Assembly: GCA_030625085.1 (NCBI GenBank)
Contig: DAOURK010000040.1
Location: 1-32,825, forward strand
Source: Pseudomonadota bacterium
GTDB taxonomy: Bacteria > SZUA-182 > DTGQ01
Direction: 5' to 3'
Length of the DNA stretch: 32,825 bases
Below are positions 22,964-32,825 of the stretch, piece after piece; position 1 is the first letter of the stretch, and every line of letters begins with the position of its first letter. The notes beneath the pieces were generated by a model that had not been told where the DNA came from, did not search any database, and saw only the letters and a program-made list of their open reading frames with translations. The position numbers and the translations under genes were made by a program.

Positions 22964-24742
22964 ATGGAGATGTATAAACGACTGCTCAAATTTGTGAAAC
23001 CTTACAGGAAAAGAATGGCCCTGGCCATATTATTTATGACTTTCACTGCTGTGCTGAATTCCGGAATTGCCTATTTGGTCAAGCCGCTATTGGATGACAT
23101 CTTTGTTAACAAACGCTGGCTCATACTTAAGTTTTTGCCCGTCTTTTTAATAGTTCTTTATTTATTAAAGGCGGCTTTCACCTATGCCCAAAATTATTTT
23201 ATGATCTATATTGGAGAAAATGTAGTCATAAACTTACGTATTGAATTATTCGCTCATATTCATTCCCTCTCAATGGATTTTTTTACCAAGAGATCTACTG
23301 GCATGATCATGGCCCGAATTAACAGTGATGTAGGCCTAGTTCAGCAGGCCATTACCCGGGCCATAGCGGATTTGTTCCGCTCCCCCTTAAATATCATAGG
23401 ATATTTAGCTGTTATGTTTTATTGCAGTTGGCAGTGGTCGCTTATGGCCGTTGTGATATTGCCCTTTGTAGCTCTTTTAATTGCCAAATTGGGAATGAAG
23501 CTCCGGCGTATTACTTCAAAAATACAAGAAAAAGTAGCCGACTTAACTATTATCCTTCACGAAACCATATCAGGCGCACTCATTGTTAAAGCCTTTGCCA
23601 TGGAAGAGCGAGAGGTTGAGCGATACAGGCAGGAAAATCGACAATTTTTTAATGAAGCAATGAGGGCCGGCCGTGTTGTGGCGCTTTCTTCACCCTTGAT
23701 GGAAGTCCTCGCATCCATAGGTATTGCCATTGTCATCTGGTTTGGGGGATCTCAGGTTATTGCCGGAAAATCCACGCCAGGGAATTTTTTTGCCTTCCTC
23801 ACTGCCTTGCTTATGATGTACGGGCCTATTAAGAAATTAACTGCTGTTAATAATACCACACAACAAGGTATTGCCGGCTCGGTGAGAATTTTTGAATTTT
23901 TGGATGCCAAGCCTAGCGTCAAAGAAGCAAAAGATGCCATAGAAATGCCTCCATTTAATAGAAGTATCGAATTAAGCAATGTATCCTTTAAATACGAAGA
24001 AAAAATGGTATTGCAAGACATAAACCTTTGCGTGAAAAAAGGAGAAATTATTGCTATTGTAGGGGTCAGTGGTGCAGGTAAAACTACCCTGTGTAATCTC
24101 CTGCCACGATTTTACGATGCCACTTCCGGCAACATTTTTATCGATGGACAGGATATTAAAAACCTTACCATAAGCTCTTTGCGACGACAAATTGGCATCG
24201 TTACCCAGGAAACCATATTATTTAATGATACCATTAAAAACAACCTCACTTATGGAAAGCCGGATGCCCCTGAAGAAGAAATTATTCAAGCAGCCAAGGC
24301 GGCCATGGCTCATGAATTTATCTGTCAGATCCCAGGGGAATATAATGCTCATATCGGCGAAAGAGGAACAAAACTTTCAGGCGGACAAAAGCAACGCATG
24401 GCTATTGCCCGCGCTATTCTCAAAAATCCACCCATTTTAATTCTCGATGAAGCAACCTCTTCACTGGATTCTAAATCAGAAGCACTGGTTCAAAAAGCCC
24501 TGGAAAATCTTATGCAAAACCGAACAACCTTCATTATTGCTCATCGATTATCTACTGTGCGGGGAGCGCATAAAATTATTGTGCTTCATCATGGAAGAAT
24601 AAAAGAATTTGGAACTCATACAGACCTCTTGGCCAAAAAGGGAATTTACGCATACCTCTACAATACGCAATTTGAAATTGAAACTGAAAGCGACGATTCA
24701 TGTTTGGGGGAAATGATTGGTGCAAAAGGCTTTACCTCCTAA
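22964..24742 (+). CDS. msbA: Lipid A/LPS-precursor exporter, ABC transporter MsbA-like
   Basis: Homodimeric half-transporter that flips lipid A-core across the inner membrane. The 592 residues comprise a six-helix transmembrane domain (about 15-315) fused to an ATPase domain. Walker A is GVSGAGKTT (367-375), the Q-loop is VTQETILF, the signature is LSGGQKQR (471-478), Walker B is ILILDEA (491-497), and the switch His is in AHRLST (His527). GAGGGAA in the hldE end provides the ribosome site; ATG 22970 is an alternative start two codons in. Linkage to hldE supports MsbA over a generic multidrug exporter. A short acidic tail follows the ATPase. Confidence 0.88.
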   Translation: MEMYKRLLKFVKPYRKRMALAILFMTFTAVLNSGIAYLVKPLLDDIFVNKRWLILKFLPVFLIVLYLLKAAFTYAQNYFMIYIGENVVINLRIELFAHIHSLSMDFFTKRSTGMIMARINSDVGLVQQAITRAIADLFRSPLNIIGYLAVMFYCSWQWSLMAVVILPFVALLIAKLGMKLRRITSKIQEKVADLTIILHETISGALIVKAFAMEEREVERYRQENRQFFNEAMRAGRVVALSSPLMEVLASIGIAIVIWFGGSQVIAGKSTPGNFFAFLTALLMMYGPIKKLTAVNNTTQQGIAGSVRIFEFLDAKPSVKEAKDAIEMPPFNRSIELSNVSFKYEEKMVLQDINLCVKKGEIIAIVGVSGAGKTTLCNLLPRFYDATSGNIFIDGQDIKNLTISSLRRQIGIVTQETILFNDTIKNNLTYGKPDAPEEEIIQAAKAAMAHEFICQIPGEYNAHIGERGTKLSGGQKQRMAIARAILKNPPILILDEATSSLDSKSEALVQKALENLMQNRTTFIIAHRLSTVRGAHKIIVLHHGRIKEFGTHTDLLAKKGIYAYLYNTQFEIETESDDSCLGEMIGAKGFTS

Positions 24743-24813
24743 CCAAATAAAGCCTTCTTAATTCTGTTTGTGGTTTTATTCCTGGTTAATCGCACAAAAA
24801 AAATGAGGCGGGT

Positions 24814-25629
24814 ATGAAATTAAAAGAATTTTTTTATATTCTCGGAATCAAACCAAAAGTTAAACAATGGGGATACAAAATCAAAAATTTCCAATTATCC
24901 CAATATGGCGCTGTTGAGTATGCTCAATGGCTCCACCCTTCAGAGGCAGAAAATAAAATAGAAGAAAATGTTTTGAAAGGATTGAGTTCATTCCTTGATA
25001 CAGGAGATTTTTGTATAGATATAGGTGCTCATACTGGGGATACGACCATACCAATAGCTTTATGTGTTGGCAAAACCGGCTGCGTTTTGGCTTTAGAGCC
25101 AAACAAGTTTGTTTATCCGGTTTTGAAAAAAAATGCAAACCTTAACATCGAGAAAACAAATATCATTCCTCTTATGGTTGCAGCAGCAGAGCAAGATGGC
25201 ACAATGGAATTTGAATACTCGGACTCCGGCTTCTGTAATGGAGGCTTACACAAGCAAATAAGCAAATGGAAACATGGCCATGCTTTTAAGCTTGAAGTGG
25301 TATGCGTCAACCTTTCAAAAATATTAAGAAAAGATTATCATGAACAATTAAAAAGGCTTAAATTTATAAAAATAGATACTGAGGGTTATGATTTATTTGT
25401 TATTAAATCGTTGAATGATCTTGTGAATAAATTTCACCCATATATGAAGGTTGAAATATATAAACACACTACTTGTGAATATAGAGAAGAATTATTTGAC
25501 CTATTATCGAGTAAAGGCTATAGCCTCTACAAAGTAAAAAATGATAGTAATTTGATGCAATATGAAATCACAAAAAATGACCTGATGAGCTGGAAACATT
25601 ATGATATTTTTTGTGTGCCTCAAAAGTAG
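24814..25629 (+). CDS. FkbM family methyltransferase
   Basis: A 271-residue S-adenosylmethionine-dependent methyltransferase. The FkbM pattern is clear: the AdoMet-binding CIDIGAHTGDTTIPIALCVG (67-86), LALEPNKFVYPVLKKNANLN (acidic end of strand 2), and FIKIDTEGYDLFVIKSL (about 185-201). Family members O-methylate sugars or polyketides, and in clusters like this one they usually decorate surface glycans. It is 71 bases after msbA but with lower GC content, and marks the left edge of the AT-rich polysaccharide region. GAGGCGGGT precedes the ATG closely. Confidence 0.88.
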   Translation: MKLKEFFYILGIKPKVKQWGYKIKNFQLSQYGAVEYAQWLHPSEAENKIEENVLKGLSSFLDTGDFCIDIGAHTGDTTIPIALCVGKTGCVLALEPNKFVYPVLKKNANLNIEKTNIIPLMVAAAEQDGTMEFEYSDSGFCNGGLHKQISKWKHGHAFKLEVVCVNLSKILRKDYHEQLKRLKFIKIDTEGYDLFVIKSLNDLVNKFHPYMKVEIYKHTTCEYREELFDLLSSKGYSLYKVKNDSNLMQYEITKNDLMSWKHYDIFCVPQK

Positions 25630-25843
25630 ATCAATTTACTTTTATCTTGATAACCCCTATACAAAAATTGAAAAGGAGATCTGGAAATATCAAATAATTA
25701 TAACTGTAGTATTCAAGACAGTCGGTATACTCATATAGCGCCTAATCCAAATTCAGGGAAATGAATTAAGGGGCATTTCTCAAACAGCAAAATATGGCTC
25801 TATCCCTCTACTGTCACCTTCCCAAATCTTTTTTGATAACCAG

Positions 25844-26734
25844 TTAGCCAAAATTAGAAGTATTCCTTCCATATTCAACCCTAAATTTTTGGGAAATGAA
25901 TACAACTGAATTATATAAAAAATATTTTAATAATTCGCCCTTTTCTCGATAGGATAAATAACGTTTATATTCAGCCTCATCTATAATATAAGGGATGTCA
26001 TCTATGGAATAAAACTTCTCATGCACTGCTATTTTGGTGGGCAGACCGAGAGATTTTAAATAATCTATAATATCTTTACCAAAATCAGTATATACTAAAC
26101 TACCAGTTTCTTTTAATGGGTCTAAATGATATACAGGCGGCATAGAAAAGATGTTCTTACTTCCATCTTTCTTAACTCTTACTAAACTTTTTCTACCCTC
26201 ATGGAAAGGGATAGTGAAAATGTGGTAGCCATCATATTTTAAAACCCTTTTTATTTCTGTAAAACCTTTACTTGGGTTTTTTATATGCTCAAAAACATCC
26301 TGAGTGATGATAATGTCGAAAAAATTATCGGGAAAGCTCAAATCTTCTATATCTTCGCATCTTATACCATCCTCGTTTAGCGAACCTAGTGGAATGTTAT
26401 CAAAAAATTCTGAACATATGTATTTTGGCAAATTACTTAAATAGCTATGAATGGGGCCGACCGCTTGTGTTTCATATATAACAAACTTCTTCAGGTAAGC
26501 CATTGCAGAAGAAAGAGAAAATGTGGTATCGTTATTTACATAAGTCATTAAAATAACCTTTGCTAAATCTCTATTCCTCCTGGTTCCTTTACATATGGGG
26601 CACTTACTCTCTCTGAGGCTAGATCCCTTTTCTATTTGAAAATCAACTTGGTTCCCACATATAGAACATTTTCGCCGCCCATGGATATAATCATCATCCT
26701 TGTTCTTGAAAATAGAAAATAATCTACTTAACAT
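25844..26734 (-). CDS. Class I SAM methyltransferase with N-terminal zinc-ribbon-like CxxC pair
   Basis: A 296-residue protein. Residues 20-50 carry two CxxC pairs (Cys23/Cys26 and Cys45/Cys48), likely a zinc ribbon. The methyltransferase core follows, seen as NEDGIRCEDIEDLSFPDN, FDIIITQDVFEHIKNPSKG and IKRVLKYDGYHIFTIPF; the canonical glycine-rich loop is degenerate. The later YHLDPLKETGSLVYTDFG resembles YHGDPVTSKGCLCFAHFG of the gene at 29709, so the two are relatives. I chose ATG 26734 with GGGGAAG upstream; a TTG at 26857 in the same frame would add 41 residues but lacks a ribosome site. The acceptor is unknown, presumably a surface glycan. It converges with the FkbM gene across 214 non-coding bases. 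Confidence 0.8.
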   Translation of the reverse strand: MLSRLFSIFKNKDDDYIHGRRKCSICGNQVDFQIEKGSSLRESKCPICKGTRRNRDLAKVILMTYVNNDTTFSLSSAMAYLKKFVIYETQAVGPIHSYLSNLPKYICSEFFDNIPLGSLNEDGIRCEDIEDLSFPDNFFDIIITQDVFEHIKNPSKGFTEIKRVLKYDGYHIFTIPFHEGRKSLVRVKKDGSKNIFSMPPVYHLDPLKETGSLVYTDFGKDIIDYLKSLGLPTKIAVHEKFYSIDDIPYIIDEAEYKRYLSYREKGELLKYFLYNSVVFISQKFRVEYGRNTSNFG

Positions 26735-27091
26735 ATAGAATTGGCTTCCCCATATCAAAATAAGTTTTGAATAAAACGCAAATAACAAACAAAAAGGAAA
26801 TGGCTTCTTGGTTGACTTGATTCTTTCGAACTTCGCATGATATAAATTCCAGGACAAGAATAAGGATATATGAAATCATCTGACACTGCAACCGCACAAC
26901 CTCAATGAATACAATACCACAAAAAAATTAATGACTTAATTAGTATAATTTGATATTCTTATAATTTATGGAAAATTTTACATTGTCATTATACAAAATT
27001 CTTATTGTTAATCAACTGTTTTTAAAATAATTTTTTTGATCTTTTCAACATCTTGTTATTATTACTATATTAACAAAAGGAAAACATAAAA
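26735..27091. other. Very AT-rich divergent intergenic region
   Basis: Between the minus-strand methyltransferase and the plus-strand fusion gene. The part next to the methyltransferase could be an in-frame N-terminal extension of it from a TTG at 26857. The rest (26858-27091) is very AT-rich with no coding signal. It presumably holds divergent promoters, but with this composition I cannot single out hexamers. AAAAGGAAAA lies just before the ATG at 27092. Confidence 0.5.
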
Positions 27092-29692
27092 ATGGAATTT
27101 ACAGGTGAACGAATAATTCCTGATATCCCTCAATGGGAACATTTATATCTTGAACATTTTTATCGATACCTATTTGCAAAAGAATTTATAAAAGATAAAA
27201 TAGTCTTGGATGTAGCTAGTGGTACAGGTTATGGTTCTGGATATTTAAAAGATAACAAAGCAAAAGCAGTCATTGGAGCAGATATTAATTTTGAGGCGGT
27301 GAGTTATTCGAAAAAAAATTTTCAGCATGCACTCTATTTACAAGCAGACGCTATTCAATTGCCCTTTAGAGATGACTTCTTTGATGCAGTAGTCTCTTTC
27401 GAAACAATAGAGCATTTGAGAGAATATAAAAAATTTTTGTATGAAATAAAACGTGTTTTAAAAAAGACAGGCCTTTTACTAATATCTTCTCCAAATAAAT
27501 TAAATTATCATGGAGGCGATGCCGGTGGGAAAAATCGATTCCATTTCAAAGAATTATATCTAGAAGAATTTTCCAATCTTTTAAACCAACACTTTTCAAC
27601 TATCGAAATATATGGCCAACATTGTACGAAATTACATAAAGATTATAGCAATAAAGATTACAAACCAAAATTAAAAGATATATTAATAAATAAAGAAAAA
27701 ATTGAAAAAGCAAATTTTTTTATCTCTTTATGCGCTGACTGCGAGATAAAAATGACTCCTGAAATACAGGTTTCGATTATAATTCCTATCTTTAATTGTT
27801 TTTCTTACACTAAGCAATGTATAGAAAAAATCTTACCGGAGTTAAACTATAACACAGAAATAATTGTCATTAATGATGCCTCAAAAGAAGATAAAATTTA
27901 TGATTATTTAAACTCTATACAAAATAAAGTTAAAGTTATTCATAATAAAAAGAATAATGGTTTTTTAAAATCCTGCAATAAAGGAGCAAAGCTTGCTCAA
28001 GGCAAATATCTCTTATTTTTAAATAATGATACAATCCCTCAGGAAAATTGGCTTGAGAACTTGGTTGAAATCGTTGAAAAAAATGAAAAAATTGGTGCAG
28101 TTGGTGCAAAACTCATATATCCTGATGGTATATTACAAGAAGCAGGAGCCATAATTTTTAATGATGGCTCGGGTTATAACTATGGGAGAAATGATGACCA
28201 AAATAAGTATGAATATAACTATGTAAGAGAAGTTGACTATTGCTCTGGTGCCTGTCTATTAGTTAGAAAGGATGTGTTCAAAAAAATAGGTGGCTTTGAT
28301 GAAAAATTTTCACCTGCTTTTTATGAGGATACTGATTTATGTTTTTCTATCAGAAAACTAGGGTACAAAGTTATGTATCAGCCAAAAAGCAAGGTGATTC
28401 ATTTTGAGGGCGCTTCTTGTGGCAGAGATTTAACATCTGGAATTAAAAAATATCAAGAAATAAATAAAACTAAATTTGTTGAAAAATGGAAAAAGGAATT
28501 AATACATCAATACCCTCATGATAAAAAAAATGTTAGCTTAGCTGCTGATCGCCAAAAAGGCAAAAAGATACTCTTTTTTTATCCTCATCTGCCTTCCTAC
28601 GATAGGGACTCAGGGGCTTTTAGATTATTTAATATTTTAAAAATCTTAATAAATGAAGGACATCGTATCGCCCTCCTGTCAGATAATCAAATGCTAGAAG
28701 GTGAAAAAAGATATAAAGAAAAAATGGAAGAATTGGGAATAATGGTTATTAAAATTCCCGAGTTTAAAAAAGGAAACTTCATTTCAACAAGAACGTTACA
28801 AAGAAAAAGATTTATTAAAAATTTATATTTATCTCACGATATTTTATGGTTTGTTCATTACCATATGGCTTATAAGTATCTGGATTCACGAAAAAAATAT
28901 GCTAAAAATGTGCGTTATATAACTGATAGTGTTGATTTACATTTTTTAAGAGAGCAAAGGGAGTCTGAACTGTTAAATGATAAAAATAAGGTTAAAAAAA
29001 TAACAAGGACTAAGAAAAAAGAACTCTCTGTATTTAAAAAATCTGACATTGTTATTGCTATTACTGAAAAGGAAAAACAAATTATTAATAAAGAATGCCC
29101 TGATATCAGGGTTGAAGTAATAACGAACATACACCCAATAATAAAAAATCATAAAAATTTTAATGGCAGAGAGAATCTTCTATTTATTGGAGGGTATTTA
29201 CATTGTCCAAATTCTAATGCAGTTAAATATTTCGTTAGTGAAATTTTCCCTTTAATTAGAACCAAAATTAAAAATATTACATTTTATGTTGTAGGAGGAG
29301 AGTATCCTAACCATTTTATAGATAAATACTCCAACAAGAATATCTCTTTCACCGGACCGGTGAATAGCACACAGGTATATCTACAAAAATGTAAAGTATT
29401 AGTTGCCCCGCTTCGGTATGGCGCGGGTATGAAAGGCAAGGTTGGTGAAGCAATGTCTTCTGGGATTCCGGTTGTCACAACTTCAATAGGCGCTGAGGGG
29501 ATGGGATTAATTGATGGAGAAAATATCCTGATTGCCGACACCCCTGAAGAATTTACCGACAAAGTGGCCATTATTTATCATGATAAAGATTTATGGAATA
29601 AAATTTCCATAAACGGTAAAAAGTATATTGAAACTCATTTTTCTCCGGAAATAGTCGGCAAATCAATTAAAAAAATGATTGATTTTGAATAA
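27092..29692 (+). CDS. Three-domain fusion: SAM methyltransferase, GT2 and GT4 glycosyltransferase
   Basis: An 866-residue protein with three enzyme modules. Residues 1-215 form a class I methyltransferase: VLDVASGTGYGSGYL (38-52), DAIQLPFRDDFFDAVVSFET, IKRVLKKTGLLLISSPN. Residues 226-450 are a GT2 domain: VSIIIPIFN, IIVINDAS, LFLNNDT with Asp313, YCSGACLLVRK and YEDTDLCFSIRKLGYKV. Residues 490-866 are a GT-B (GT4-type) domain: ILFFYPHLPSYDRDSGAFR, LLFIGGYLHCPNSNAVKYF, and the donor-binding VAPLRYGAGMKGKVGEAMSS (771-790, Glu786). No signal peptide or membrane segment is evident. It probably adds two sugars and a methyl group to a surface polysaccharide; substrates are unknown. The reading frame is continuous, so it is a true fusion. 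Confidence 0.88.
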   Translation: MEFTGERIIPDIPQWEHLYLEHFYRYLFAKEFIKDKIVLDVASGTGYGSGYLKDNKAKAVIGADINFEAVSYSKKNFQHALYLQADAIQLPFRDDFFDAVVSFETIEHLREYKKFLYEIKRVLKKTGLLLISSPNKLNYHGGDAGGKNRFHFKELYLEEFSNLLNQHFSTIEIYGQHCTKLHKDYSNKDYKPKLKDILINKEKIEKANFFISLCADCEIKMTPEIQVSIIIPIFNCFSYTKQCIEKILPELNYNTEIIVINDASKEDKIYDYLNSIQNKVKVIHNKKNNGFLKSCNKGAKLAQGKYLLFLNNDTIPQENWLENLVEIVEKNEKIGAVGAKLIYPDGILQEAGAIIFNDGSGYNYGRNDDQNKYEYNYVREVDYCSGACLLVRKDVFKKIGGFDEKFSPAFYEDTDLCFSIRKLGYKVMYQPKSKVIHFEGASCGRDLTSGIKKYQEINKTKFVEKWKKELIHQYPHDKKNVSLAADRQKGKKILFFYPHLPSYDRDSGAFRLFNILKILINEGHRIALLSDNQMLEGEKRYKEKMEELGIMVIKIPEFKKGNFISTRTLQRKRFIKNLYLSHDILWFVHYHMAYKYLDSRKKYAKNVRYITDSVDLHFLREQRESELLNDKNKVKKITRTKKKELSVFKKSDIVIAITEKEKQIINKECPDIRVEVITNIHPIIKNHKNFNGRENLLFIGGYLHCPNSNAVKYFVSEIFPLIRTKIKNITFYVVGGEYPNHFIDKYSNKNISFTGPVNSTQVYLQKCKVLVAPLRYGAGMKGKVGEAMSSGIPVVTTSIGAEGMGLIDGENILIADTPEEFTDKVAIIYHDKDLWNKISINGKKYIETHFSPEIVGKSIKKMIDFE

Positions 29693-29708
29693 ATTTTTAT
29701 TAGCCAAT

Positions 29709-30551
29709 CTATTTGTATGCAACAAAAAGGATTTGTTCACTTCCTAAATACCCAAAATCCATAGCCCAAAACAAAACGGCATAAGCATCAGAAAAACCCG
29801 ATTCCCTTATTTGTCTAAGCATTTCCCAGCCAAAATGAGCGAAACATAAGCACCCTTTTGAAGTTACAGGGTCTCCATGATATTCGGGCTCTAACAAATG
29901 TTTAATCGATCCATCAGATTTCCTTTGTGCACGAATGATGTTTTGTTCTGAATTGCGATTAAATGGTACAGACCAAAGCATCTTGCCACGAGGCTTTAAA
30001 ATTCGGTGACATTCCTTAAAGGCCCTCTGGTGATCTGGAAAATGTTCGAAGCAATCAAATGACAAAACATGATCTACTGTTTCGTCATCTAAGCTCAGAT
30101 GGGTTAAATCTTCATTGCGAATCCCTTTTTCATTCATATCTCCCAGATTCACTTTAGCTCCCAAATATTCACTGCCGATAATATTCCGATATCTTTCACT
30201 GAGAAAGGAATATAGTGGGGTTACTTGTTCCGTTATATAGATAATGTTACTTGGGTAAGCCATTAATTCAATATCAAAAAGGTGTAAGCTTCCCCTTAAT
30301 CTATTATTGAGTTTAGTAAGGGGACAAATAATTGTCTCACGCCAATTTATACTGCTCCCATCGGGGCATCGATAATCAATGTAAAATTTGACGCATCTCC
30401 CTGCAGGATAAGAAAACCCATGAAAGAAAATTTTTTTCTTTTTCTTTGGTAAAATTTGATTCTCCACTGTCTGGTAGTGTAAGTATTCTTCTGCCATCTT
30501 CTGTGTATGTATGACATATTCACTGTAACTTCTTATTCTAAATAGTTTCAT
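29709..30551 (-). CDS. Class I SAM-dependent methyltransferase
   Basis: A 280-residue protein whose C-terminal half is a methyltransferase: ATG-proximal region without known motif, then GSEYLGAKVNLGDMNEKGIRN, LTHLSLDDETVDHVLSFDCF, EHFPDHQRAFKECHRILK, PRGKMLWSVPF, and EPEYHGDPV with FAHFGWEMLRQIRESGF. The N-terminal part has CP-x-C-free, zinc-less sequence, unlike its relative at 25844. The target is unknown, likely a glycan. ATG 30551 is preferred over an in-frame TTG at 30590, which has no ribosome site. It converges on the fusion gene with 16 bases between the stops. Confidence 0.8.
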   Translation of the reverse strand: MKLFRIRSYSEYVIHTQKMAEEYLHYQTVENQILPKKKKKIFFHGFSYPAGRCVKFYIDYRCPDGSSINWRETIICPLTKLNNRLRGSLHLFDIELMAYPSNIIYITEQVTPLYSFLSERYRNIIGSEYLGAKVNLGDMNEKGIRNEDLTHLSLDDETVDHVLSFDCFEHFPDHQRAFKECHRILKPRGKMLWSVPFNRNSEQNIIRAQRKSDGSIKHLLEPEYHGDPVTSKGCLCFAHFGWEMLRQIRESGFSDAYAVLFWAMDFGYLGSEQILFVAYK

Positions 30552-30657
30552 TTCCTTAAAATACCTTAAAAAAGTTCCCCAATATTGCAAAGAGTTAAAA
30601 ATTTAGTGCAGAACATATCAGCCCTTTGTGAGCCCTCTAGCTCATCAATCCTTATAA

Positions 30658-32334
30658 TTAAAAAATATATTTATTAATTTTAACGCAAAAATAAGGTTGT
30701 TCATCAGAAAAATTAGGGTTATAAAATTGATCACACCCCTTACCCCTATTCCACTTTTGCAGCATATATATCCGTTCACTATTAATTAAACTTTTAAATT
30801 TTTTTTCCCTTGAAGCCGCTTCATAATGATAAAGAACGCTGTGAGGGCTATAGATATTATAATACCCCTTTCTTAACAGCTTAAAACAAAAATCAATATC
30901 ATTAAAATCATTAGCTAAAGATTCGGTAAGTCCTCCTACCTTGTGAAATTTTTCTTTTGCAATCATCAAACAAGCTCCAGTGACCCAGCTATATTCTCTT
31001 GTTAAATTATTATACTCTTTATAGCCTCCCTTATATGCGCGCAGAAATCTATTTACATGGTAATGTTTCATTACAATGCCCGCATGTTGTATTTTATGGT
31101 TTGGGTATAGAAGCTTTGCACCAACTGCTCCCACTTCCGGGATTTGAGCTAATCCTAAAAGACTTTCCATCCAATCGGGAGTAAGCACTTTTGTATCATT
31201 ATTCAATAAGATTAGATACTTCCCTTCTGCCGCATGAGCCCCCATATTATTTAATTTTGAATAATTAAAATCAATACCCACCTTTATTATTCTGTGTTTT
31301 GTATTGTTTAAATATTTTAAGGACTCTTCATCTTTGCTTCCATTATCAATAAGTATGATCTCGTAATTTTCATAACTTGACTTTGTCTCAATACTTTTAA
31401 TACATGCCCTTAATAATGAAATTTTATCTCTAAAAGGAATAATAATTGATATCTTAGGATGCCCCTTAGGATAAAATTTTAATAAATTAAATCCTTTTAC
31501 TTTATAATCTAAAATTTTTGCATTTAGCTTCCGCGCTTTAATTTCCTGTTGAATTGTTTCCGTTGTAGGAGTATTTTTCAATGTATTAGCATGGTGCCAA
31601 TGCCTGTGGTATAATACATCAGCGATTCTCACCGACTTTGCTCTATTTCTCATAACTTTTAAAACTAATTTATAAATTGATACCTGATTTATTTTTTTCA
31701 AAGAGCTAATTTCCCGAATGACTTGATCTGTTAATTTTAGGCATAAAAAGGCATTCATATAGTTATGACTAAATAATAATAAGGGAGCATATTGTGGTTT
31801 AAAATAGGGAGTTATTCTTAGTCCAAATCTATTTAAAACATCCTCATCGCTGTAAATCAAGTCTATACTATCATCACCCTGAATTGTTTTAGTAATGCAG
31901 CTAAGTGCATAATTAGCTATTAGATCACCTTGCTCGATAAAACAAATATGCGAATAATTTTTATCAAGTTCGGAAATCAAATCATCAATATTGCTATTTA
32001 TTAAAAAAAGCCGGTAATTATTATAAGTTTGATTTTTCAAACATTCTAATATCTTATAATAGGCCTTTTTTTTCAATTCTTTTTCATAAAAATAAATAAT
32101 AGCAAATTTTATATCAGAGGATTTTCTCTTGGAAGAATTATTGATTCTATAATATTTTTTTGAATTATTATATTTCCAAAATGAATATCTAATAATACCA
32201 TCGTTTTTTAGACGTTTATCTAATGCATGAACTAAATATTTTTGTAAGCTAACTCTGCTAGACCTTAAATCGCCCCTTAGAGTATTTTTTAAGAAATGGG
32301 CCATTATCAATGGAACCTGTTTTAATTTAGGCAT
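30658..32334 (-). CDS. Family 2 glycosyltransferase with two GT-A-like halves
   Basis: About 558 residues from ATG 32334 (a GTG at 32349 would add five). Numbered from that GTG, the first half (80-260) looks like a degenerate GT-A domain that keeps the DXD-like LIYSDEDVLN (164-173) and YFKPQYAP. The second half (298-530) is a full GT2 domain: ISIIIPFRDKISLLRACIKS, IILIDNGS, LILLNNDTKV (Asp385), VGAVGAKLLYP, WVTGACLMI and DFNDIDFCFKLLRKGYYN. This layout is common among O-antigen rhamnosyl- and galactosyltransferase-like proteins. Its GT2 half resembles the GT2 module of the fusion at 27092. Donor and acceptor are unknown. Confidence 0.85.
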   Translation of the reverse strand: MPKLKQVPLIMAHFLKNTLRGDLRSSRVSLQKYLVHALDKRLKNDGIIRYSFWKYNNSKKYYRINNSSKRKSSDIKFAIIYFYEKELKKKAYYKILECLKNQTYNNYRLFLINSNIDDLISELDKNYSHICFIEQGDLIANYALSCITKTIQGDDSIDLIYSDEDVLNRFGLRITPYFKPQYAPLLLFSHNYMNAFLCLKLTDQVIREISSLKKINQVSIYKLVLKVMRNRAKSVRIADVLYHRHWHHANTLKNTPTTETIQQEIKARKLNAKILDYKVKGFNLLKFYPKGHPKISIIIPFRDKISLLRACIKSIETKSSYENYEIILIDNGSKDEESLKYLNNTKHRIIKVGIDFNYSKLNNMGAHAAEGKYLILLNNDTKVLTPDWMESLLGLAQIPEVGAVGAKLLYPNHKIQHAGIVMKHYHVNRFLRAYKGGYKEYNNLTREYSWVTGACLMIAKEKFHKVGGLTESLANDFNDIDFCFKLLRKGYYNIYSPHSVLYHYEAASREKKFKSLINSERIYMLQKWNRGKGCDQFYNPNFSDEQPYFCVKINKYIF

Positions 32335-32349
32335 TTTCTCGCCACTCAC

Positions 32350-32690
32350 TTGGTTATAAACACTAAAAAATATTTTGTTCTACTCACTCCCTTTAAATAC
32401 TTACCAAACATTGCCCTATACCAAGTCTGGTTTTAAATTAGGCTATCATAATAAACCTAATCATGCCATAACTAAACTTGAGAAATCAATACTAAATAAA
32501 TATCCAACCCGTGACATTAATTTTACAAAATATGGATCTCACAATGTGAATACCCTGGGATTCTTTTTATCCAATTTTCCACTGATTTTTAATTAATTAT
32601 TGTGAGTTCTTTTAAAAATCCTATAGATATTTCGTTTAACTCCTCAGCATGCTTGATTCTCTTTTTATCTATTACTGTATCTGTATATAA
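32350..32690. other. AT-rich intergenic region before the IS element
   Basis: Nothing is recognisable in 32350-32588. A 73-codon open frame on the plus strand (32375-32596) resembles no family and has no ribosome site, so I do not call it. The right part (32589-32690) may be the tail of a minus-strand gene cut by the IS. Confidence 0.5.
32589..32690 (-). pseudogene. Possible C-terminal remnant of a gene interrupted by the IS
   Basis: Read on the minus strand from the IS boundary, about 33 codons are open and end at TAA (32589-32591). The peptide contains DKKRIKHAEELNEISIGFLK, an amphipathic, soluble-protein-like helix similar in style to the last helix of many cytosolic enzymes. No family can be assigned from so little sequence, and an open stretch of this length could arise by chance in AT-rich DNA. 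Confidence 0.3.
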
Positions 32691-32825
32691 TGGACTGGAT
32701 TTTTCGGACCAGTAGTTAAGATGCATTTAAGATGCTAGAATGACCAAAAGGAGGTTCGGGAATGCGAAAGAATTTCAGTCCGGAATTTATGGCCAAGGTA
32801 GCTTTGGCAGCAATCAAAGAGGAGA
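32691..32825 (+). mobile_element. Left end of an IS3-family insertion sequence (cut by window end)
   Basis: The stretch starting TGGACTGGATTTTTCGGACC has the TG opening of an IS3-type terminal repeat and lies 71 bases before an OrfA start, the normal distance. The exact end is an estimate because the right terminus is outside the window. It borders the AT-rich polysaccharide region. Confidence 0.6.
32762..32825 (+). CDS. IS3-family transposase OrfA, N-terminal fragment
   Basis: The first 21 codons read MRKNFSPEFMAKVALAAIKE plus a further Glu, matching the typical start of IS3-family OrfA (M-R-K-x-F-S-x-E-F-K-A-K-V-A-L-E-A-I), the beginning of its helix-turn-helix domain. AAGGAGG seven bases upstream of the ATG is a strong ribosome site. 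The gene runs off the window end, so neither its intactness nor an OrfB partner can be judged. Confidence 0.8.
   Translation, partial: MRKNFSPEFMAKVALAAIKEE

Follow-up and report, generated by a model that had tools for sequence, protein, structure and literature searches.

A methyltransferase joined directly to a GT2-GT4 glycosyltransferase pair: a compact, ruler-less candidate for a trifunctional surface-glycan enzyme of known type

A protein that carries a methyltransferase (MT) and two different glycosyltransferase modules in one chain raises the question of what the three modules do together: do they build and methylate a single glycan, and does the methyl group end its growth? Such a protein, P0001, is encoded in the stretch of 32,825 nucleotides analysed here (the window), at positions 27092-29692 on the plus strand, as a single ATG-initiated frame of 866 amino acids with no internal stop. 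An earlier note, made from the sequence alone, had read the frame as a fusion of MT, GT-A and GT-B modules, and this is borne out by Pfam, whose matches run from a methyltransferase through a GT2 to a GT4-type domain, and by an AlphaFold model of the full chain (mean pLDDT 84.8, pTM 0.74, 34 alignment rows). In the NCBIfam scan, none of the best 25 of 55 families reached its cut-off. The possibility that one module lacks its fold, raised in the same note, is not the case: all three folds were recovered by Pfam and model matches, confirming three intact domains of different folds in one chain. As the genome assembly is split into 247 contigs, the fusion might have been created by misassembly or a frameshift; the frame is unbroken, however, and complete plasmids, independently sequenced, carry the same MT-GT2-GT4 order, so that we reject this explanation as hardly credible.

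The first module, a class I SAM-dependent methyltransferase, spans residues 1 to about 218 (27092-27745, plus strand), with a Pfam Methyltransf_11 match at residues 39-131 (3.8e-21). Modelled alone it reached only moderate confidence (pLDDT 66.8), and this model superimposes on 1ve3 (Z 19.4, 171 residues, rmsd 2.6) and on the methyltransferase CgnL, 7pd7 (Z 17.5, 169 residues, rmsd 3.3). The VLDVASGTG signature lies at residues 38-46, and the SAM-site residues D40, G44, G46, D64 and D98 are invariant in two alignments of six MTs each. The module is 38-44% identical to MTs from other loci, and its last strand, conserved across 17 aligned MTs of the subfamily, corresponds to ANFFISLCAD at residues 207-216.

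The second module, of GT-A fold, covers about residues 226-470 (27767-28501, plus strand). Pfam Glycos_transf_2 (PF00535) matches residues 228-400 (2.3e-30), the model of the full chain shows a GT-A type domain from about residue 227, and Foldseek matches of this part include GalNAc-T2 and the chondroitin polymerase K4CP; the GT-A assignment is based on Pfam and Foldseek, as the VIA-align rows of the full chain span the GT-B part only. All 34 aligned GT2-GT4 rows retain N311-N312-D313, of which D313 sits in LNNDT, and E412-D413. The module has what is expected of CAZy family GT2, a GT-A type domain with D-x-D type and catalytic acidic motifs.

The third module is a complete GT-B domain at residues 489-866 (28556-29689, plus strand). 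Pfam Glyco_trans_1_4 matches residues 695-831 (2.9e-24); the N-terminal half of the domain has no Pfam match, yet is folded confidently in the AlphaFold model. Residues 490-866 align with 6kih, a GT-B enzyme of solved structure (Z 33.1, 343 residues, rmsd 2.9), and the GT-B part also matches TarM, 4x7r (Z 32.9, 346 residues, rmsd 2.8). The module thus has the GT-B fold expected of CAZy family GT4, of which it is a putative member. The EX7E motif is imperfect: its first position, which we take to be residue 778, holds Ala, and its second is Glu786. Position 778 is Ala in 32 of 34 rows and Gly in the other two; the column of Glu786, read in 31 of the 34 rows, holds Gln 14 times, Glu 11 times, His three times, Met twice and Ser once. 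GT4 members vary at this motif, and the GT-B fold assignment stands unaffected. Because its column is often Gln and position 778 is Ala or Gly, Glu786 is, judged by the alignment, a weak signature rather than a family-defining one. Of the three signatures named in the earlier note, VLDVASGTG and Asp313 therefore hold well, and Glu786, although present, carries little weight.

Is this domain order peculiar to P0001? The genome collection yielded nothing when searched with the single P0001 sequence; a search with alignment A1 gave the working set, in which at least 575 of 593 candidate stretches hold GT2-GT4 relatives. The best 80 of these at least 575 relatives, with five plasmid loci, make up a set of 85 loci, all of which have GT2 followed by GT4 by custom module profiles, in a single frame or, as in L052 with its broken genes, in several. 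By profiles and Pfam, an MT lies directly N-terminal to GT2-GT4 in six of these loci: L050 (Pseudodesulfovibrio), L051 (Gluconobacter), L053 (Allorhizobium), L055, L104, and L078, which carries an additional GT2 after these three. L062 has MT and GT2-GT4 inside a much longer chain with other modules. Among plasmids, 4 of 455 matching records have one place spanning at least 80% of the query. With the P0001 MT alone as query, 50 of 386 genomes gave matches at E <= 1e-20, and an MT search centred on G216 returned matches already given by that search. The neighbourhoods taken for 16 of these 50 genomes contain two further MT-GT2-GT4 chains, L202 and L201 (the GT4 part of the latter seen by Pfam), together with an MT-GT2-GT2 chain (L203), the MT-GT2 chains L205 and L216, and a GT2-MT chain (L206). 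The search for other genomes with this order, which the earlier note had proposed, thus found eight other loci (L050, L051, L053, L055, L104, L201, L202 and L078); a viral search gave 23 loci, none of those listed matching across all three modules. The GT2-GT4 pair is widespread and the domain order is not unique to P0001, and the build, an MT with two different sugar transferases in one chain, is rare but recurring.

An MT of this subfamily can also have a gene of its own, with a GT2-GT4 gene (L087, L092) or a GT2-GT4-GT2 gene (L208, L210, L212) following immediately downstream; this placement argues that the domains share one pathway. Activity on record was seen neither for P0001 nor for its GT2-GT4 relatives, and the MT domain could in principle be inactive, or act on a substrate other than a glycan. 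With the SAM-site residues invariant in both alignments and the MT found repeatedly beside GT2-GT4, we regard this as very improbable.

In a tree of 90 GT2-GT4 rows, L050, L051 and L053 form one group (support 99) and P0001 pairs elsewhere, with L068 (support 96). According to the starred branches the fused state must have been gained or lost at least twice, and the fusion therefore probably arose or disappeared repeatedly. Given the long branches and the skewed composition of P0001 in the tree, its pairing with L068 is a lead. In L068, from a planctomycete, an MT of the P0001 subfamily is fused to a sulfatase domain (residues 320-631; gene at L068:1493-3727, plus strand), directly upstream of a separate GT2-GT4 gene.

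What sets P0001 apart from these relatives is mainly the absence of a rod-like spacer that many of them carry. From the last MT strand to the GT2 module there are 9 residues (217-225; 27740-27766, plus strand), compared with 180-751 in the six fused relatives whose last MT strand could be located (L050 343, L051 277, L053 751, L202 181, L201 180, L203 180). In L078 (MT-GT2-GT4-GT2) and L216 (MT-GT2) the spacing also looks short, judged by eye. The P0001 model has no long helix at the junction, only short low-confidence helices at 174-222, with low pLDDT at 174-200 and 209-222. By a crude heptad measure of coiled coils, devised for this analysis and tested against 50 shuffles, the linkers of 6 out of 11 fused proteins score above all shuffles, as do the tails of 5 out of 9 MTs encoded by their own gene, and P0001 (0 coiled-coil-like residues) and 5 of 6 GT4 controls score zero. 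L092 scores 0 as well, and for the L050 linker the score was reached by 17 of 50 shuffles, although it is visibly an 18-residue repeat. In L050:5798-9427 the MT-GT2 linker is a near-perfect array of such repeats; Pfam labels part of it Bactofilin, probably spuriously. A coiled-coil-like stretch C-terminal to the MT is thus present in many relatives, and P0001 is a direct MT-GT2 splice without a spacer.

The combination of activities has published precedents. WsaE of Geobacillus stearothermophilus, which acts on the S-layer glycan, is reported to make two rhamnosyl linkages and to add a 2-O-methyl cap (PMC2943079); like P0001 it carries, by description, an MT at the N-terminus and two GT domains in the same chain, and its gene adjoins wzm and wzt, whereas that of P0001 does not. 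A064R of chlorovirus PBCV-1 adds, with three domains, two rhamnoses and, on the terminal one, a 2-O-methyl group (PMC7019647); by that description it shares with P0001 the presence of two sugar-transfer domains and a methylation domain in one chain, but it comes from an algal virus and has the order GT-GT-MT, in contrast to MT-GT2-GT4. O7 ORF6 of Klebsiella pneumoniae is an MT-kinase-coiled coil-GT2-GT2 protein (PMC11231755), similar to P0001 by description in its N-terminal MT and two C-terminal GT domains. It differs in having two GT2 domains instead of a GT2 and a GT4, and in the kinase and coiled coil between MT and GTs, for neither of which the 9-residue junction of P0001 leaves room. According to the authors of the Klebsiella work, an extended coiled coil with the terminator at its distal end is the characteristic marker of the termination strategy (PMC11231755); P0001 has no extended coiled coil that would part a terminator from the GT modules.

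One of the MT-(spacer)-GT2-GT4 proteins is WP_162291212.1 of Pseudodesulfovibrio profundus (the L050 protein), which has the same three modules in the same order and is 38% identical over the alignment; it has 343 residues from MT to GT2, against 9 in P0001, and is annotated merely as a glycosyltransferase. Searches of the open-licence literature found no characterised MT-GT2-GT4 enzyme, and in the literature searched we found no description of a GT2-GT4 pair joined with this MT, or of the direct splice. The earlier note had allowed that the domain order might already be common and characterised. This is half the case: the order turns up in further taxa, and biochemical work has characterised orders closely similar to it. 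Two sugars and a methyl group from one chain are not a new idea, and P0001 is best seen as a compact form, without a ruler, of an already known type of trifunctional surface-glycan enzyme.

On balance we consider it the probable reading, by analogy, that P0001 is a trifunctional surface-glycan enzyme, functionally like WsaE or A064R and without a ruler. The three intact folds, the conserved catalytic motifs, the recurrence of the MT with GT2-GT4, the presence of an MT in every GT2-GT4 locus flanked by Wzm and Wzt, the published precedents and the low-GC setting among MT and GT2 genes support it; the replacement of Glu786 in most relatives, a Wzt_C found only on another contig, the small share of strong-MT loci with flanking Wzm and Wzt, and the lack of a visible operon partner speak against it. 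P0001 would be located in the cytoplasm, where GT2 and GT4 would extend a growing oligosaccharide, probably one carried on a lipid, by two sugars in different linkages. At the family level GT2 enzymes are inverting and GT4 enzymes retaining, and the two steps of P0001 would be expected to follow suit. The N-terminal MT would then O-methylate, with SAM, a sugar placed by P0001 itself, most likely the newest one, at the non-reducing end. The methyl group may mark each short product or stop growth stochastically; no long-chain measuring would be expected, because the coiled-coil spacer is absent. It is an inference that the three domains are all active and work on one glycan, that this glycan belongs to the cell surface and that the MT targets its terminal sugar.

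The proposal that the chain adds two sugars and a methyl mark is therefore sound, by analogy with WsaE, A064R and O7 ORF6, and the chain-length capping also suggested in the earlier note has less support: the coiled-coil marker is replaced by a 9-residue splice, and no Wzm or Wzt was found in the window ORFs scanned. Ruler-type polymerase-terminator proteins are exemplified by WbdD and O7 ORF6; two glycosyltransferases with a sugar O-methyltransferase suits P0001 better than a ruler-based chain-length terminator of this type. Capping by P0001 is plausible, and since the marker of ruler-based capping is absent, in-chain or stochastic methylation is a serious alternative. The MT might, for instance, decorate the chain internally, leaving an O-methyl sugar in each repeat unit while growth goes on. 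A direct splice without a coiled coil would suit methylation coupled to each transfer, and the spacing judged short in L078 and L216 fits as well; in WsaE and A064R, however, the methyl group is reported to sit on the terminal sugar or act as a cap (PMC2943079, PMC7019647), and we think internal decoration possible but rather unlikely.

In its genomic surroundings, P0001 comes after genes for HldE (heptose activation), an MsbA-like exporter and an FkbM methyltransferase, and stands alone on the plus strand between minus-strand genes, with no visible operon partner. Other MT and GT2 genes lie around it. Two methyltransferase-like proteins flank it (25844-26857 and 29709-30590, both minus strand), both matching Pfam Methyltransf_11 only in the second half of the profile, from position 46 on; their SAM-binding half looks degenerate or divergent. 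In a 563-aa protein (30658-32349, minus strand) Pfam places a GT2 domain at 301-471, and the N-terminal stretch of about 295 residues has no Pfam match at 0.01. GC content is about 29% at P0001, against 35-47% in 2-kb steps before position 24000. Past the MsbA-like gene (24800-32825) it falls from about 40% to 29-34%, and such drops are common in horizontally acquired polysaccharide loci.

The Pfam scan of 20 window ORFs found no Wzm or Wzt; the contig ends at 32825, which cuts the 3' side. The genome holds eight Wzy_C matches, and its only Wzt_C match lies beside a Wzm on contig C92, not on the contig of P0001. In the set of 85 GT2-GT4 loci, Pfam finds Wzm together with Wzt in the flank of L060, L087, L092 and L104, and these four all carry an MT gene or a fused MT; a strong MT is present in nine loci of the set, of which only L087 and L092 have such a flank. 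P0001 might still be a true chain-length terminator, with the ruler supplied in trans by another coiled-coil protein and export by the C92 Wzm/Wzt, the one Wzm-Wzt_C pair of the genome. Related MTs do occur beside Wzm/Wzt in cyanobacteria and in L104 and, by BLAST, in L203 and L207. The P0001 gene, however, lies outside the Wzm-Wzt_C cluster, and in the Klebsiella systems it is the terminator that occupies the distal end of the coiled coil (PMC11231755), making a ruler in trans quite improbable.

The trifunctional, ruler-less reading has a bolder form, in which methylation is tied to each transfer cycle: the MT would read the sugar just placed by the GT2 to which it is spliced, and then either stop growth stochastically or write one methyl per repeat. 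We hold this to be unlikely as it stands. Apart from the ruler question, P0001 is one more module shuffle in a shuffle-prone group. Placing a chain-terminating methyltransferase on a coiled-coil ruler is an established means of controlling O-polysaccharide length; if methylation were indeed coupled to the transfer cycle, one polypeptide would set the length or pattern of a glycan without such a ruler, and P0001, L078 and L216 would form a compact class. The natural series from MT-coiled coil-GT2-GT4, through a separate MT with GT2-GT4, to the direct splice offers a way to probe what the ruler contributes.
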